In this document: in pieces, positions 16,289 to 21,242 of the stretch
How positions within the stretch are numbered: position 1 is the stretch's first letter
Layout: the number at the start of each line of letters is the position of its first letter
Origin: Methylotenera sp. RIFCSPLOWO2_02_FULL_45_14
GTDB lineage: Bacteria; Pseudomonadota; Gammaproteobacteria; Burkholderiales; Methylophilaceae
Direction of reading: 5' to 3'
Length of the DNA stretch: 56,683 nt
Assembly (NCBI GenBank): GCA_001803395.1
Contig: MHBU01000017.1
Coordinates: 1 to 56,683, forward strand
Notes under the pieces: generated by a model
Told to the model about the DNA's origin: nothing
Database searches by the model: none
Seen by the model: the letters and a program-made list of their open reading frames with translations, nothing else
Translations under genes and position numbers: made by a program

Positions 16289-18745
16289 ATGCTTAAACAT
16301 TTCAACGTCATTATTATTGGTGCAGGGCCTAGCGGATTATCTGCTGCTATCCGAGCAGCCGAGCATGACGTTTCATACTTGCTGCTGGAGGCAACGCAAG
16401 CTGTAGCAAGCACTATTCGCAGCTATCAGCGCGGCAAGCTGGTGATGGCAGAGCCTCGTGGCTTGCCTCTGCGCAGTCCACTGCCGTTTACGGCGTCATT
16501 ACGTGAAACTGTGCTTGAAAATTGGGAAAAATCCATTTCGGAGCACAAAATTAATGTGCGCTACGACGCTAAGGTGGTTGCGATTTCGCGCCTTAAAAAT
16601 AAACTTGAAATCGAACTGGCAGACGGTGACAAACTCACGGCAAATCATGTAGTACTTGCCATTGGCGTGCAAGGTAATTTGCGTAGACTGGAAATTCCAG
16701 GGGGTGATTTACCGCAAGTACAATATCAACTGGATGACCCGGAAGCTTACCAAAATGAAACCATTGTTGTCGTAGGCGGTGGTGATAGTGGCGTAGAAAA
16801 TGCGCTGGCACTTACAAATAGAAATCAAGTCATCATACTGAACCGTGCTGAAGACTTTAGTAATTTGAAAGAAAGCAACCTGAGCCAACTAATGGAATCG
16901 CGGCAAAAGGGTGCCGTAGATTGGTTACTGGAAACAAAACCTCAATCCATTGAAAAAAATACCAAGGGTGAGTTTCCAATCACCCTATTTGCCAATACGC
17001 CAAAAGGTGTGGAACGCATTCCATGCCACCGCATCATTGCTCGACTTGGCGCACTGCCCTCGCGACCATTATTGGAGAGTTTCGGAATTGCTTTTCCGAC
17101 AGCAGATCTGGGTGCCCTTCCACTACTTTCTACCAGTTATGAATCAAATGTACCTGGTCTCTATATTATTGGTGCGCTTGCAGGCTACCCTTTAATTAAA
17201 CAAGGCATCAATCAAGGTTATGAGGTCATTGAGTATATTCTTGGCAATGATGTAGAACCTGCTGATACTGCATTGCTGCGTGAAAAGTTCTCAAACTTTT
17301 GCACCGATCGTGGTGTTGATGATGTTCTGTACAAAATTCAAAAAAACGTGCCAATTCTAGCCATGCTAAACACGCTACAGTTACGTGAACTGGTGTTGGA
17401 AAGTAATATTTTATTGTCAGAACCTAGCGATATTATCTTTAAACGCAACGATTACAGCACCACTTTCTTTTCAATTATTGAGGGTGAATTAGATGTTTTG
17501 ATTGATGAAGATAATGTGCCAGATGCTACATTAAAGGCAGGCGACTTTTTTGGCGAACTAGCCCTGGTCTCTGGTCGTCGCCGACCAGGCACAGTGCGCG
17601 CACGAACAAAATGCGTCATCATTGAAACGCCGCGGCGTGTGATGCAAAAACTGATAGGTTCGGTGCAAGCCATGCGCCGCATGCTGAACCAAGTTGCCAT
17701 TAAAAGTGTGGTCCAAGTCTGCATCGGGCTTTCATTAAGTGAAGAAGACCTCAATGATGTCGCCACTCACGCGACACTTAAAAGCTACAACGCAGGTGAA
17801 GACCTTTTTCATGAAGGTGATGAAGCAGATGGTTTGTACCTCATTCAAAGTGGCTCGGTTACCGTATCTCGCATGATAGGCGGCCGCGAGGTTGTGCTGT
17901 TTTATGTGGCTGCGGGTAACTATGTTGGAGAAATGTCACTCGTTTCTGGAGAGCCTCGTTATGCCACAGTGCGAGCAGCGGTGGCAACTGAAGCTGTTTT
18001 AATTAAAGCGGATCGTATGCGCGATATCATCGCGCGTAATCCTGAAATTCGTAGCGCACTTGATGCACGCTATCTTAACCATTTACAAGAGCAAGAAAAA
18101 CGTAAACAACTTGAAAGCGCCTCGGATGGCAGCGGTGCGTTTACTAGTCAATCCACGCAATCTAACTTAATCTCGTTCCTCATTCAACAAGGCGTTGGCG
18201 AGGCAACTGACGTATTGCTGATTGATGAGTCATTGTGCATTCGCTGTAATCACTGTGAACAAGCCTGTGCCGATACCCATGGCGGCGCAACGCGTTTAGA
18301 TCGTGACACGGGTCCAATTTTTGCCAACATTCGGGTTCCCACTTCATGTCGCCATTGCGAACATCCGCATTGCATGAAAGATTGTCCGCCAGACGCGATT
18401 CACCGTGCACCACATGGTGAAGTTTATATTGATGATAGCTGTATAGGTTGTGGCAATTGCCAGCAGAATTGTCCTTATGACGTTATTCAAATGGCGGTAA
18501 TTCAAGATCAGCCAGAGCGTAGCCTGTGGCAGATGCTACTTGGAATTCAGCCAGAATCATTACCCACAACCAATAGCGCCAAAGTTGCGGTTAAATGTGA
18601 TATGTGTAAAGACATCACCGACGGCCCTGTATGCGTACGCGCCTGCCCTGTAGGCGCTGCATTACGCGTAAATCCTGAAGGGCTGTTGGGTTATGCCAGC
18701 GGCACTTCTGGTGAAGTGGCTTTACTTAGCTCAGATGAAATTTAG
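16289..18745 (+). CDS. FAD oxidoreductase fused to two cNMP-binding domains and a 4x[4Fe-4S] ferredoxin
   Basis: An 818-residue fusion. Residues 1-320 form a thioredoxin-reductase-like flavoprotein: GAGPSG (11-16, FAD), GGGDSG (163-168, NAD(P)H) and PGLYIIGALAG (~289). It has no CxxC redox pair. Residues ~365-470 and ~490-600 are two cyclic-nucleotide-binding domains with phosphate-binding cassettes GELALVSGRRRPG and GEMSLVSGEPRYA. Residues ~640-800 have sixteen cysteines in four groups (650-660, 687-699, 718-728, 770-786) like DmsB/HycB subunits, enough for four [4Fe-4S] clusters. It has no membrane segment. It is followed by a cytochrome-b-like and a decaheme gene at 13 nt and 3 nt. Likely a cytoplasmic electron-input subunit gated by nucleotide binding. 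Confidence 0.88.
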   Translation: MLKHFNVIIIGAGPSGLSAAIRAAEHDVSYLLLEATQAVASTIRSYQRGKLVMAEPRGLPLRSPLPFTASLRETVLENWEKSISEHKINVRYDAKVVAISRLKNKLEIELADGDKLTANHVVLAIGVQGNLRRLEIPGGDLPQVQYQLDDPEAYQNETIVVVGGGDSGVENALALTNRNQVIILNRAEDFSNLKESNLSQLMESRQKGAVDWLLETKPQSIEKNTKGEFPITLFANTPKGVERIPCHRIIARLGALPSRPLLESFGIAFPTADLGALPLLSTSYESNVPGLYIIGALAGYPLIKQGINQGYEVIEYILGNDVEPADTALLREKFSNFCTDRGVDDVLYKIQKNVPILAMLNTLQLRELVLESNILLSEPSDIIFKRNDYSTTFFSIIEGELDVLIDEDNVPDATLKAGDFFGELALVSGRRRPGTVRARTKCVIIETPRRVMQKLIGSVQAMRRMLNQVAIKSVVQVCIGLSLSEEDLNDVATHATLKSYNAGEDLFHEGDEADGLYLIQSGSVTVSRMIGGREVVLFYVAAGNYVGEMSLVSGEPRYATVRAAVATEAVLIKADRMRDIIARNPEIRSALDARYLNHLQEQEKRKQLESASDGSGAFTSQSTQSNLISFLIQQGVGEATDVLLIDESLCIRCNHCEQACADTHGGATRLDRDTGPIFANIRVPTSCRHCEHPHCMKDCPPDAIHRAPHGEVYIDDSCIGCGNCQQNCPYDVIQMAVIQDQPERSLWQMLLGIQPESLPTTNSAKVAVKCDMCKDITDGPVCVRACPVGAALRVNPEGLLGYASGTSGEVALLSSDEI

Positions 18746-18758
18746 AAAGCACTAATGA

Positions 18759-19589
18759 ATGCAACGCAGTAACATTTTTGATTATAAAAACTATCGCTAT
18801 TTCAAACTGGCGGTTATTGTCATTCTCATCGCTTTTGTTGCTTATTTATTATTTGAGCCAGCAGTTGGGCATTATGGTGGCAGTTGGCTTGGGTATGGCC
18901 TTGGCACTATTTCCGCACTCATGGTGTTGTGGATGGCATGGTATGGGGTGCGCAAACGTCGTTATCGTGGCTCTGGCGCCACGCAAGGCTGGTTATCGGC
19001 GCACATCTACTTAGGAACAGCGCTCACCATCATGGTTACTTTGCACAGCGGTTTTCACTTTGGCTTGAACATTCATACGCTTGCCTACGCCATATTGTTA
19101 ATCGTGGTCATCAGTGGCTTTTTTGGCAACTATACCTATATGATTTACCCACGCCAAATGACCGAAAATATGGGCGAAGATAACTTGGACGGTTTACTGC
19201 TACGTATCGCAGAAGCCGATAAGCTAGCGCGGCAAATTGCGCTGCTGATGCCAGACCACATTAATAATGCCGTTGCACGCGCTTGCGGTGAAACTTCTAT
19301 CGGCATCGGGTTGCTAGAGCAACTTCGAGGATTTCAACCAAACTGCCCTTCTGCCATCGCGGTACAACAACTCTCGGTGATGGACAATACCCTGTCCACT
19401 GAGCAGCGTAAATTGTATCGAGATTTATATTCAATCATGGTGCGGCGCGAGTCCTTGGTAAAGCGCGCGCGCCAAGATTTAATGTATCGCGCTCGATTAG
19501 GTTTTTGGTTATATTTTCATGTGCCTTTCACCATCGCCTTACTGGTGGCGATGCTGGCACATGTGATTGCTATTTTTGCTTATTGGTAA
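18759..19589 (+). CDS. Membrane cytochrome-b-like protein
   Basis: A 276-residue integral membrane protein with helices near 16-35, 44-63, 80-100, 107-130 and 245-275. A soluble cytoplasmic or periplasmic segment lies between helices 4 and 5 (~135-240). Histidines lie within helices at 82, 96, 100 and 106 and again at 254 and 268, which could supply two bis-His heme b sites. I do not place it in a named family, but ferric-reductase/cytochrome b561-like topology is the nearest match. It is sandwiched between the flavo-ferredoxin gene and the decaheme gene, so it probably carries electrons between them. Confidence 0.75.
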   Translation: MQRSNIFDYKNYRYFKLAVIVILIAFVAYLLFEPAVGHYGGSWLGYGLGTISALMVLWMAWYGVRKRRYRGSGATQGWLSAHIYLGTALTIMVTLHSGFHFGLNIHTLAYAILLIVVISGFFGNYTYMIYPRQMTENMGEDNLDGLLLRIAEADKLARQIALLMPDHINNAVARACGETSIGIGLLEQLRGFQPNCPSAIAVQQLSVMDNTLSTEQRKLYRDLYSIMVRRESLVKRARQDLMYRARLGFWLYFHVPFTIALLVAMLAHVIAIFAYW

Positions 19590-19592
19590 CGC

Positions 19593-21242
19593 ATGATCAA
19601 TTGTCTCTTAATTAAAATCACCCAAAACTCACGTGGTTTACCTGTGCGTAGTTATCGCACATTGGCCGCCGAGGAACTCACGTTTGGCCGTGGTGCAGAG
19701 TGTACCATTCACTTGCCTGACCCACGCATTGCCATGCACCATGCTGTGATCAAACGCTGCGATGACGGTGAGTTGCATTTAATAGCGCTTAATGGCGAAC
19801 TAGAGATTGATTCTGCATCCAGACAAAACATTGAGCTCACACAAGGCACGCAAGTCATGGTGGGACCTTATCAGTTAACGGTAGAGCCAACGCCGCCTGA
19901 TGTCAATTTATCAATATCGCTCGCACTAGTACATCGCTTGCCTGATGATTTTCAAAACATCAAATCACGTACGCACGAACCGCTACCAGGGGCAACACAG
20001 TTTAAAAGACGCTTATCAATATGGATGGTGGCGTTGATTGCGCTACTGTTTTTAGTGTTACCAATGGCGCAAAATTTAATCCCACAATTACACGACACCA
20101 TGGCAGAGCTACCCTTTGGTTTCGATAGAGTGTGGAGCCCAGGACATATCTCGAATGCGCATCGGCATTTTGGTTCACAATGCGCCAATTGCCATCAAGC
20201 ATTAACACAGCAGGTAACTGACCAGGCTTGCATGCAGTGTCATCGCGATACTACACCACATATTACTGACCCCGCTTTGCAACATCATGCATTTGAAGCT
20301 AAACGCCAGTTTTTAGGCAGCACACGCTGCGGTGAATGTCACCGTGAACACAAAGCCCCCCACCCGTTAACACGGCAAGATAATGGTATGTGCGTAAAGT
20401 GTCATGGCAACATCAAGTCTATTGATGCCAATACTAAGCTATCAGATATTCATGATTTTGATAAAGACCACCCTGGATTTAAACTCACGTTCAAATCAGG
20501 TGACAACAATGAGAAGATTGAGCGAATCCCGCAAACTGAAAAAGCACGTTTGATCGAAAATTCCGGGCTGAATTTTCCGCATTCGCAACATATTGGAAAA
20601 GTGCAAGGGCCTAACGGTATGCGAGACGTGCGCGAGCTTTCATGTACGACTTGCCACCAGTCAGAAGGCAAAGAAATGCGGTTTAAACCTATCGCATATA
20701 AGCGCGATTGTCTCTCTTGTCATGCTAGTAAACTTGAGGTTGGCCCTGCTAATGCAAAGCTTAATGTGCCTCATGGCTCAGAACAAAATGTCATGAATAC
20801 GCTAAAACTTTTTGCGCCAAAAGCCTTTGAACTTCATTCAGAAACATTAAAAACAACAGGTTGTGCATACTGCCATGTGGTTGAATCATCTGTCAAAGGA
20901 GATGCGTTACCATGGCGCATCAAACCATTGCAAATTAACCAGGACTGGTTTAGTAAAGCGCGATTCAAACACGCATCGCATAGAACGCAACAATGTAACT
21001 CATGTCACCAAGTGGAGGAATCAGAAACCAGCGCAGATGTTGCCATGCCAGATCGGGATTCCTGCTTGCGCTGCCACTCTGGCAACAGCCCAAAATACAA
21101 ACGTATTGCCAGCGGATGTATGTCCTGCCACGATTTTCACAGTGTGCATGGGGCAGTCAATGCGCCCATTTCTAGTGAGAAACTCAACCCAGAAGAGCTT
21201 GATACCTTGCTTTCCATATCGAAACAACCGCCTAAAGAATAA
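19593..21242 (+). CDS. FHA-like domain / decaheme cytochrome c fusion
   Basis: A 549-residue protein. An N-terminal FHA-like domain (~25-100) has GRGAECTIHLPD, but the usual serine before the histidine is missing (RIAMHHAVI). A single membrane helix follows at ~142-160 after KRR. The rest is periplasmic with ten CxxCH heme-c sites, at 197, 213, 246, 267, 351, 373, 424, 468, 491 and 509. Extra histidines (HSQH, HHAF, HGS) can serve as distal ligands. The three-base gap from the cytochrome-b gene implies tight coupling. Probably an inner-membrane multiheme electron acceptor facing the periplasm. The FHA fold binds phosphothreonine in other proteins; here the loss of a key serine makes that uncertain. 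Confidence 0.85.
   Translation: MINCLLIKITQNSRGLPVRSYRTLAAEELTFGRGAECTIHLPDPRIAMHHAVIKRCDDGELHLIALNGELEIDSASRQNIELTQGTQVMVGPYQLTVEPTPPDVNLSISLALVHRLPDDFQNIKSRTHEPLPGATQFKRRLSIWMVALIALLFLVLPMAQNLIPQLHDTMAELPFGFDRVWSPGHISNAHRHFGSQCANCHQALTQQVTDQACMQCHRDTTPHITDPALQHHAFEAKRQFLGSTRCGECHREHKAPHPLTRQDNGMCVKCHGNIKSIDANTKLSDIHDFDKDHPGFKLTFKSGDNNEKIERIPQTEKARLIENSGLNFPHSQHIGKVQGPNGMRDVRELSCTTCHQSEGKEMRFKPIAYKRDCLSCHASKLEVGPANAKLNVPHGSEQNVMNTLKLFAPKAFELHSETLKTTGCAYCHVVESSVKGDALPWRIKPLQINQDWFSKARFKHASHRTQQCNSCHQVEESETSADVAMPDRDSCLRCHSGNSPKYKRIASGCMSCHDFHSVHGAVNAPISSEKLNPEELDTLLSISKQPPKE

Follow-up and report, generated by a model that had tools for sequence, protein, structure and literature searches.

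The stretch of DNA analysed here (the window) comprises 56,683 nt of contig MHBU01000017.1 from assembly GCA_001803395.1 of Methylotenera sp. RIFCSPLOWO2_02_FULL_45_14 (G000 in the genome labels). Its subject is a trio of genes at 16289..21242, named A, B and C, which were analysed as a candidate route for electrons across the inner membrane. An initial annotation had described a flavin reductase fused to cyclic-nucleotide-binding (CNB) domains and a ferredoxin, a membrane protein and an FHA-bearing decaheme cytochrome. The open reading frames (ORFs), all on the + strand, their domain matches and the gaps of 13 nt (A-B) and 3 nt (B-C) were found exactly as claimed. The features are as follows.

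16289..18745, + strand: gene A, 818 aa; FAD/NAD(P)H oxidoreductase, CNB, CNB and 4x[4Fe-4S] ferredoxin-like protein (ORF and domain matches)
16289..17263, + strand: A, FAD and NAD(P) Rossmann domains, aa 1-325; GxGxxG at 11-16 and 163-168; no CxxC
17366..17698, + strand: A, CNB domain 1, aa ~360-470; ligand-contact residues G422, E423 and R432
17726..18088, + strand: A, CNB domain 2, aa ~480-600; ligand-contact residues G547, E548 and R557
18206..18688, + strand: A, 16-Cys ferredoxin-like domain, aa 640-800; four predicted [4Fe-4S] clusters, HycB/DmsB type
18759..19589, + strand: gene B, 276 aa; five-helix inner-membrane protein, predicted diheme cytochrome b (signature and hydropathy)
18990..19046, + strand: B, WX3HX13H on transmembrane helix (TM) 3, aa 78-96 (W78, H82, H96)
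19113..19127, + strand: B, SGXXG on TM4 (SGFFG, aa 119-123)
19506..19562, + strand: B, WX3HX13H on TM5, aa 250-268 (W250, H254, H268)
19593..21242, + strand: gene C, 549 aa; FHA-TM-decaheme cytochrome c
19680..19859, + strand: C, N-terminal FHA domain, predicted cytoplasmic, aa 30-89
20001..20090, + strand: C, single transmembrane anchor, aa ~137-166
20181..21131, + strand: C, ten CxxCH heme sites, aa 197-513, predicted periplasmic

Domain architecture and conservation

Two sets of relatives were compared with the window. The 34 Methylotenera-type loci (L006-L039, 3.9-16.8 kb each) were recovered by scanning genome contigs with B; 23 carry the name Methylotenera and 11 other names (Methylophilaceae, uncultured proteobacterium, Sulfuritalea and the like). 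The distant set consisted of 40 inspected loci, 34 with a strong B match and six with a weak match, the latter being remote B relatives. Residues were counted over 31 Methylotenera-type A and C sequences and 33 distant A sequences, which include two copies from genome G280 and show gaps in the FAD part where they are too short to cover it.

Protein A matched Pyr_redox_3 (E 9e-30), cNMP_binding twice (E 3.5e-37) and Fer4_11 (PF13247; E 2.5e-10). Its 16 cysteines fall within aa 650-786 and all were invariant in the 31 Methylotenera-type and 33 distant sequences. A also matched the HycB3/HycB4 chains in the PDB and the DmsB model. The G-E...R motif is the phosphate-binding cassette of cAMP/cGMP-responsive CNB proteins, and this cassette was intact in A, with the Gly-Glu and Arg contacts of both domains invariant in the same 31 + 33 sequences.

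Five hydrophobic segments were found in B. The positive-inside pattern was clean, with 3/0/5/0/16/0 lysines plus arginines per loop, a result of hydropathy and not of a structure model. An N-in/C-out topology is predicted, with a basic cytoplasmic loop of about 120 aa between TM4 and TM5. The helix histidines noted in the initial annotation were located in the two WX3HX13H motifs on TM3 and TM5. In an alignment of 26 rows, with identity to the window protein down to 28%, W78, H82, H96, G120, G123, W250, H254 and H268 were invariant (26/26) and S119 was kept in at least 90%. At E <= 0.1, cytochrome b561 (PF01292) was matched by 17/26 rows (best E 5e-8) and ferric reductase (PF01794) by 8/26 (best E 1.5e-4). 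When aligned with hhalign to two PCC3-type membrane proteins, the B relatives gave a probability of 97.8% (E 1.1e-12, 99 columns). Since B carries exactly the inner-membrane signature published for the PCC3 and PCC4 systems discussed below, it is most likely a diheme cytochrome b of that kind. The b-heme membrane step proposed initially was thus strengthened by the signature and by the b561-type matches among the B rows, although the window B is not one of the matching rows.

The FHA match in C scored 27.4 bits against a cut-off of 20.7 (E 4.5e-6), and the ten heme sites were present in 31/31 Methylotenera-type C sequences. If the transmembrane segment acts as a signal anchor, the FHA domain would be cytoplasmic and the hemes periplasmic. 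Within the FHA domain, R33, D43, H50 and G68 were invariant in these 31 sequences and N67 was found in 30, while position 47 was Ala in 21 and Ser in 10. The C proteins of L090, L101 and L102, the sister group of the Methylotenera form, have a sixth heme site of CX4CH type (CQQSxCH) in place of CX2CH.

The ratio of nonsynonymous to synonymous substitution rates (dN/dS) between the window and L006 was 0.039 for A, 0.042 for B and 0.099 for C; two further pairs per gene were saturated. Purifying selection is strong on A and B and somewhat less so on C. With all 16 cysteines, both CNB G/E/R triads and the ten heme sites kept across relatives, the architecture of the trio is not due to chance.

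Co-inheritance and the stand-alone form

A tblastn search found A and B in 34/34 Methylotenera-type loci (A being truncated at a contig end in some of them) and C in 33/34; the sole locus without C, L011, stops 91 nt past B. That the three genes occur together across genomes, as the initial annotation would have it, was borne out in the 34 strong-match distant loci. There, a ten-heme C homologue adjoined B on the same strand in every case (34/34, a count that takes in one CX4CH variant in L090, L101 and L102), and A was present in 33/34 genomes. A was adjacent or fused to B in 18/34 loci; the remaining 16 genomes were searched with a profile, which located A elsewhere in 15. Among these 15, A lies on the same contig, 10-15 kb off, in 11, and in G001 the gene is split over contigs. 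In L101 (3052-6423, 1123 aa) and L102 (5850-9206, 1118 aa), two genomes of one genus, A and B form a single ORF. A and B are therefore physically linked there, and the fused ORF is a convenient construct for biochemistry. These co-occurrence data support a reading of A, B and C as one co-inherited module.

In the six weak-match loci, the B relative adjoined 7-, 8-, 8-, 10-, 24- and 24-heme proteins. At L118:2794-8498, a protein with three CNB stretches and Fer4 but without FAD match lies with a remote B relative and a 709-aa ten-heme protein.

Within the genus, B was found in 42/52 sampled genomes and in 32/34 of those of good quality (at least 90% complete and at most 5% contaminated). Outside the genus it was patchy: 25/300 genomes of the order sample and 18/398 of the phylum sample, with the window genome itself and some weak or partial matches counted in, and 0/8 of the genomes listed for other genera of the same family. 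B relatives were also found on 13 plasmid records, 12 of Sphingobium and one of Emticicia. The gene mqo lies downstream, as in the window, in just 12/34 Methylotenera-type loci, although some loci stop short of where it would lie; the trio thus appears to occupy more than one genomic site. Two candidate features of the surroundings were dropped. A palindrome 94 nt upstream of the A start was seen in the window and in 0/27 relatives examined. A tRNA-linked insertion was discarded as well, a tRNA-Arg being close upstream of the trio in L012 only and tRNAs occurring in 2/16 loci scanned.

The initial annotation had pointed to outer-membrane porin-cytochrome genes near other copies, and a porin-like protein and/or a large decaheme cytochrome was indeed present in 25/34 distant genomes (loci and genome searches combined). 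Clusters that lie complete on a single contig run in the order B, C, an HbpS-like gene, the porin-like gene, a decaheme gene of ~1250-1300 aa with LVIVD repeats, a tetraheme gene and A. The porin-like profile (A4) represents the porin-like family of these related clusters, which may differ from the porin described for PCC4. Outer-membrane barrels often end in Phe or Tyr, and so did the eight printed C-termini of the porin-like protein; two of three examples scanned gave an SH3-family match. It is a putative porin on these grounds. The large decaheme scored 73 bits against 800 for ExtM of the selenite/tellurite operon, far under the cut-off. The nine genomes with neither porin-like protein nor large decaheme comprise the PCC4-like L091-L093, L090, L101, L102 and L111, and L094 and L099, the last two with an HbpS-like piece only (L099 lies on a 4-kb contig).

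Three observations on these clusters are recorded alongside. At L128:4940-8671 and in its relatives, the large decaheme has C-terminal LVIVD repeats, is weakly ExtM-like and adjoins the porin-like protein. On contig G280:C116 (L135, L136), the seven-gene cluster is complete in two copies of opposite orientation in one genome. The Sphingobium herbicidovorans pMSHV megaplasmid (L148:11443-27732; conjugative in PLSDB) carries a complete A-B-C-metallophosphoesterase set together with divergent tetraheme-type, HbpS-like, hypothetical (in the porin position) and LVIVD multiheme genes.

In the 34 Methylotenera-type loci, the porin-like, HbpS-like, large decaheme and tetraheme families gave no match. 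The large decaheme profile matched 0/52 genus genomes, and the porin-like profile matched neither the window genome nor eight of nine others tested (nine of the other 51); the ninth, G671, gave one weak match of ~80 aa (E 1e-4). A search of the window genome with PF14537, which is not a full c-type cytochrome census, found no multiheme cytochrome besides C; two further matches (E > 0.08) lay inside a DnaJ-like ORF and were dismissed. TIGR03509 (MtrB/PioB) did not match the window genome, a result that is uninformative on an Mtr-type conduit since control genomes were likewise without match. Both the porin-like protein and the large decaheme were missing from G115, G332, G447 and G300, and both profiles matched in G206, G543, G504, G668 and G624.

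A B tree of 28 rows placed three Methylotenera-type rows, G115 and the fused G332/G447 in one clade with support of 95/94. G332 and G447 have only the phylum in common with the window genome, yet share its B clade. Methylotenera and two other lineages thus have the stand-alone form and make up one supported clade. We read this as a porin-free A-B-C unit that probably arose once and was then transferred. One figure speaks against a single origin: a single change for all seven stand-alone rows was obtained in 18% of bootstrap trees. We put this down to L111 (G300), whose very long branch attaches outside the stand-alone clade even though it has no porin-like or large-decaheme match. The patchy distribution, the plasmid copies and the tree together suggest horizontal spread of the trio.

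With these results the initial interpretation as a whole is partly supported. A methylotroph was proposed as the host, which agrees with the closest records being Methylotenera, but a metal or extracellular role is unsupported for the window copy, since the porin-like and outer cytochrome families of its relatives were not found in this genome. The stand-alone clade is a warning that multiheme and b-cytochrome genes in a methylotroph need not mean extracellular electron transfer.

Proposed electron path and its alternatives

Cofactor binding, electron direction, gating and physiological partner of the trio are what we infer from the sequences. The simplest reading is a path from nicotinamide through FAD, [4Fe-4S] clusters and b hemes to c hemes: B, a predicted trans-membrane b cytochrome, occurs fused to the flavin-FeS protein in two genomes, and its gene adjoins the decaheme gene in 34/34 loci. 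A would dock at the cytoplasmic face and transfer a hydride from NAD(P)H onto its FAD, and the electrons would pass the four [4Fe-4S] clusters to B. Two b hemes would be stacked across the membrane in B, one ligated towards the cytoplasmic side by H82 and H254 and the other towards the periplasmic side by H96 and H268, and from B the electrons would reach C, whose ten c hemes would lie in the periplasm. Because the form is stand-alone and porin-free, C in Methylotenera most likely exchanges electrons with soluble periplasmic redox partners, into which it may discharge or from which it may draw. The trio could then serve as a valve for electron overflow or redox balancing, the CNB domains of A tuning it to the cyclic nucleotide level and the FHA domain of C acting in docking. 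Overall, we consider it fairly probable that A-B-C is an inner-membrane conduit from NAD(P)H to the periplasm, a stand-alone, porin-free form of the inner part of a PCC4-like system, tuned by its CNB domains.

Several points weigh against this conduit. The window B itself had no significant Pfam match (DUF2561, E 0.007, was under its cut-off). Its AlphaFold model was poor (pLDDT 60.9) and gave no Foldseek match at E <= 0.001; a PDB profile search with B returned nothing below E 0.23. E. coli thioredoxin reductase uses three arginines for the NADPH phosphate, of which A seems to keep only one. G003 has B and C without a full A. The absence of an outer part rests on profiles of related clusters alone, so that an unrelated porin could be missed, and the published PCC4 model has the electrons flow the other way.

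Thermodynamics and the nicotinamide type of the flavin domain would speak for outward flow. In the opposite, inward or quinone-linked scheme, C would collect electrons from periplasmic donors and B would pass them to the quinone pool or, via A, to NAD(P)+. Cytochrome b561-type relatives are able to react with quinones. The model in the main text of He et al. (2017; PMC5566968) likewise leads from an extracellular donor to the inner-membrane quinone pool, several PCC4 hosts coming from habitats in which iron or manganese oxidisers could find a niche. However, B is almost always accompanied by the FAD/NAD(P)H-FeS protein, with the two fused in two genomes, which implicates the nicotinamide pool, and NAD(P)+ reduction from high-potential periplasmic cytochromes would be uphill, with electrons moving against the membrane potential; we regard this scheme as unlikely. 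Slightly less probable again is a service of the trio in extracellular electron transfer through an unlinked outer conduit in Methylotenera, such as PCC3 or Cyc2. A strong PCC3-type inner-membrane protein (E < 1e-57) occurs in 12/52 genus genomes, 11 of them also with B, and a 2019 metagenome paper reports Cyc2 and putative PCC genes in some Methylotenera (PMC6344600). The strong PCC3 match is, however, missing in 40/52 genomes and in 31/42 of those with B, including the window genome. PCC3 also has its own inner-membrane protein, and PF14537 finds C alone in the window genome, a search that covers neither all c-type cytochromes nor Cyc2. That A might be a thiol-disulfide reductase of thioredoxin reductase or YpdA type, with B and C as a separate disulfide or peroxide system, appears highly improbable. 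The top NCBIfam model for A was YpdA (E 1.9e-35) and a PDB match was 7a7b, a YpdA-family putative bacillithiol disulfide reductase (E 1.1e-19), but the YpdA score was 122 bits against a cut-off of 340, and the 16-Cys ferredoxin part is invariant. Since no CxxC lies within aa 1-330, the FAD of A is unlikely to feed a disulfide. With this motif missing and the YpdA score far under the cut-off, the identity was dropped.

The regulatory domains were weighed separately from the conduit. A relative of B on the Emticicia plasmid (26% identity, E 2e-6) has as neighbours two proteins annotated as cytochrome c3 and a Fer4-Pyr_redox protein in which no CNB domain was matched. This suggests that the FAD-FeS-b-c chain is the core; the CNB pair was apparently added to a redox chain that is complete without it. 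Gating by cyclic nucleotide is plausible: PF00211, the class III cyclase family, scored above its cut-off twice in the window genome, and a phosphodiesterase-like gene occurs in 8/8 f84/f85 loci, in seven of them directly after C on the same strand. Two of these eight proteins match NCBIfam SpdA/CpdA under the cut-offs and the others are 38-53% identical to one of them; the A-B-C-metallophosphoesterase order recurs on the Sphingobium herbicidovorans pMSHV and TomTYG65 plasmids, in the latter annotated cpdA. Two considerations make this case circumstantial: cyclases are common, and no phosphodiesterase-like gene of the CpdA/SpdA kind was found in the Methylotenera-type loci. The initial annotation had cast the FHA domain as a further switch. 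The Arg, Ser and Asn contacts of canonical FHA domains for phosphothreonine presumably correspond to R33, position 47 and N67 of C. The switch was weakened, the Arg being conserved but the Ser position being Ala in 21/31 sequences and the domain missing from C in five f2-genus loci; FHA is probably a docking element. We see about an even chance that the CNB and FHA domains are purely structural, in oligomerisation or docking, and that the flux is not regulated by cyclic nucleotides, whichever way the electrons flow. The C proteins without FHA, the replaced Ser and the Emticicia relative fit this account, while the invariance of all tested ligand contacts in very divergent A proteins and the CpdA-like gene after C in one group and on Sphingobium plasmids argue against it. 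The more specific proposal, that cAMP or cGMP sets the flux at the protein level through the CNB domains and that the Methylotenera form is a free-standing redox valve without outer conduit, is put forward tentatively, with more doubt than confidence. If CNB gating is true, it would directly link a second messenger to respiratory-type electron flow.

Comparison with known systems

PCC4, itself a bioinformatic proposal in the main text of He et al., putatively comprises a porin, 4-, 5- and 10-heme cytochromes, an inner-membrane protein and other redox genes; in its Subgroup II an Fe-S gene (PF13247) lies upstream of the membrane-protein gene, and in one case the two are annotated as one (PMC5566968). 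The same text gives five helices, two WX3HX13H and SGXXG as the signature of the PCC3/PCC4 membrane protein, with two b hemes inferred (PMC5566968). The trio has a five-TM protein with both WX3HX13H motifs and SGXXG, a predicted periplasmic ten-heme cytochrome in C and PF13247 in A (E 2.5e-10) upstream of B. In L091-L093, the order is A, B, ten-heme C, 4-heme, 5-heme and a 528-aa protein without Pfam match (ending in Phe in L091), which equals the published PCC4 content if the 528-aa protein is the porin. The related porin and the 4- and 5-heme cytochromes were, in contrast, not found in Methylotenera (loci L006-L039 and window genome), and the window trio is therefore not PCC4 in the strict sense.

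PCC3, with two very large cytochromes and a porin, has Gallionellaceae and Methylotenera versatilis 301 among its hosts in the main text of the same paper (PMC5566968). Its inner-membrane protein has the same signature as B, but no large multiheme cytochromes or porin lie beside the trio in the window. The PCC3 membrane-protein profile matched B alone in the window genome, and weakly (E 2e-10). Since that genome is not among the 12 of 52 with a strong match, the trio does not depend on PCC3. PCC3-like clusters were observed at L114:8727-15978 and L115:8591-15697, with 24-heme and 62-heme cytochromes by a remote B relative; they differ from the trio in having no FAD-FeS match beside that relative, a separate FAD-type ORF lying on the other strand.

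NADPH oxidases, ferric reductases and MsrQ-type proteins carry paired HX13H motifs on two helices and conduct electrons from a cytoplasmic flavin to trans-membrane b hemes. B resembles them in its paired HX13H, and eight of its 26 rows weakly match PF01794. Unlike them, the trio has an extra Fe-S relay and a multiheme partner in place of O2, Fe3+ or MsrP, and the FAD domain of A is of the pyridine nucleotide-disulfide type, whereas that of NADPH oxidase and ferric reductase is of the FNR type. In formate dehydrogenase-N and hydrogenases, a 16-Cys four-cluster ferredoxin (beta) subunit feeds a b561-type membrane subunit. The 16-Cys part of A is predicted to feed the membrane cytochrome B in a similar manner, but the trio differs in its flavin NAD(P)H and CNB partner and in having a decaheme cytochrome, not quinone, on the far side.

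A literature search, with most subscription journals outside its reach, found no paper on combinations of FHA, CNB, multiheme and Methylotenera, and the main text of He et al. contains neither FHA nor cyclic nucleotide, although its supplements could show the architecture of A (PMC5566968). The initial annotation knew of no system with this exact set; this stands for the architecture of A and the FHA-bearing C, which were not found described in the texts accessible, but not for the membrane protein, the ten-heme partner and the Fe-S gene, which are known from the putative PCC4 (PMC5566968). According to the main text of that paper, electron passage across the inner membrane in PCC3 and PCC4 bacteria is explained by a hypothetical role of an unannotated membrane protein (PMC5566968). 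For this crossing the trio offers a concrete, testable candidate, with NAD(P)H as the proposed electron source via A, with A and B fused in two relatives, and reduced to three genes without the outer-membrane parts; it appears as a variant of an already described, itself putative, PCC4-like arrangement.

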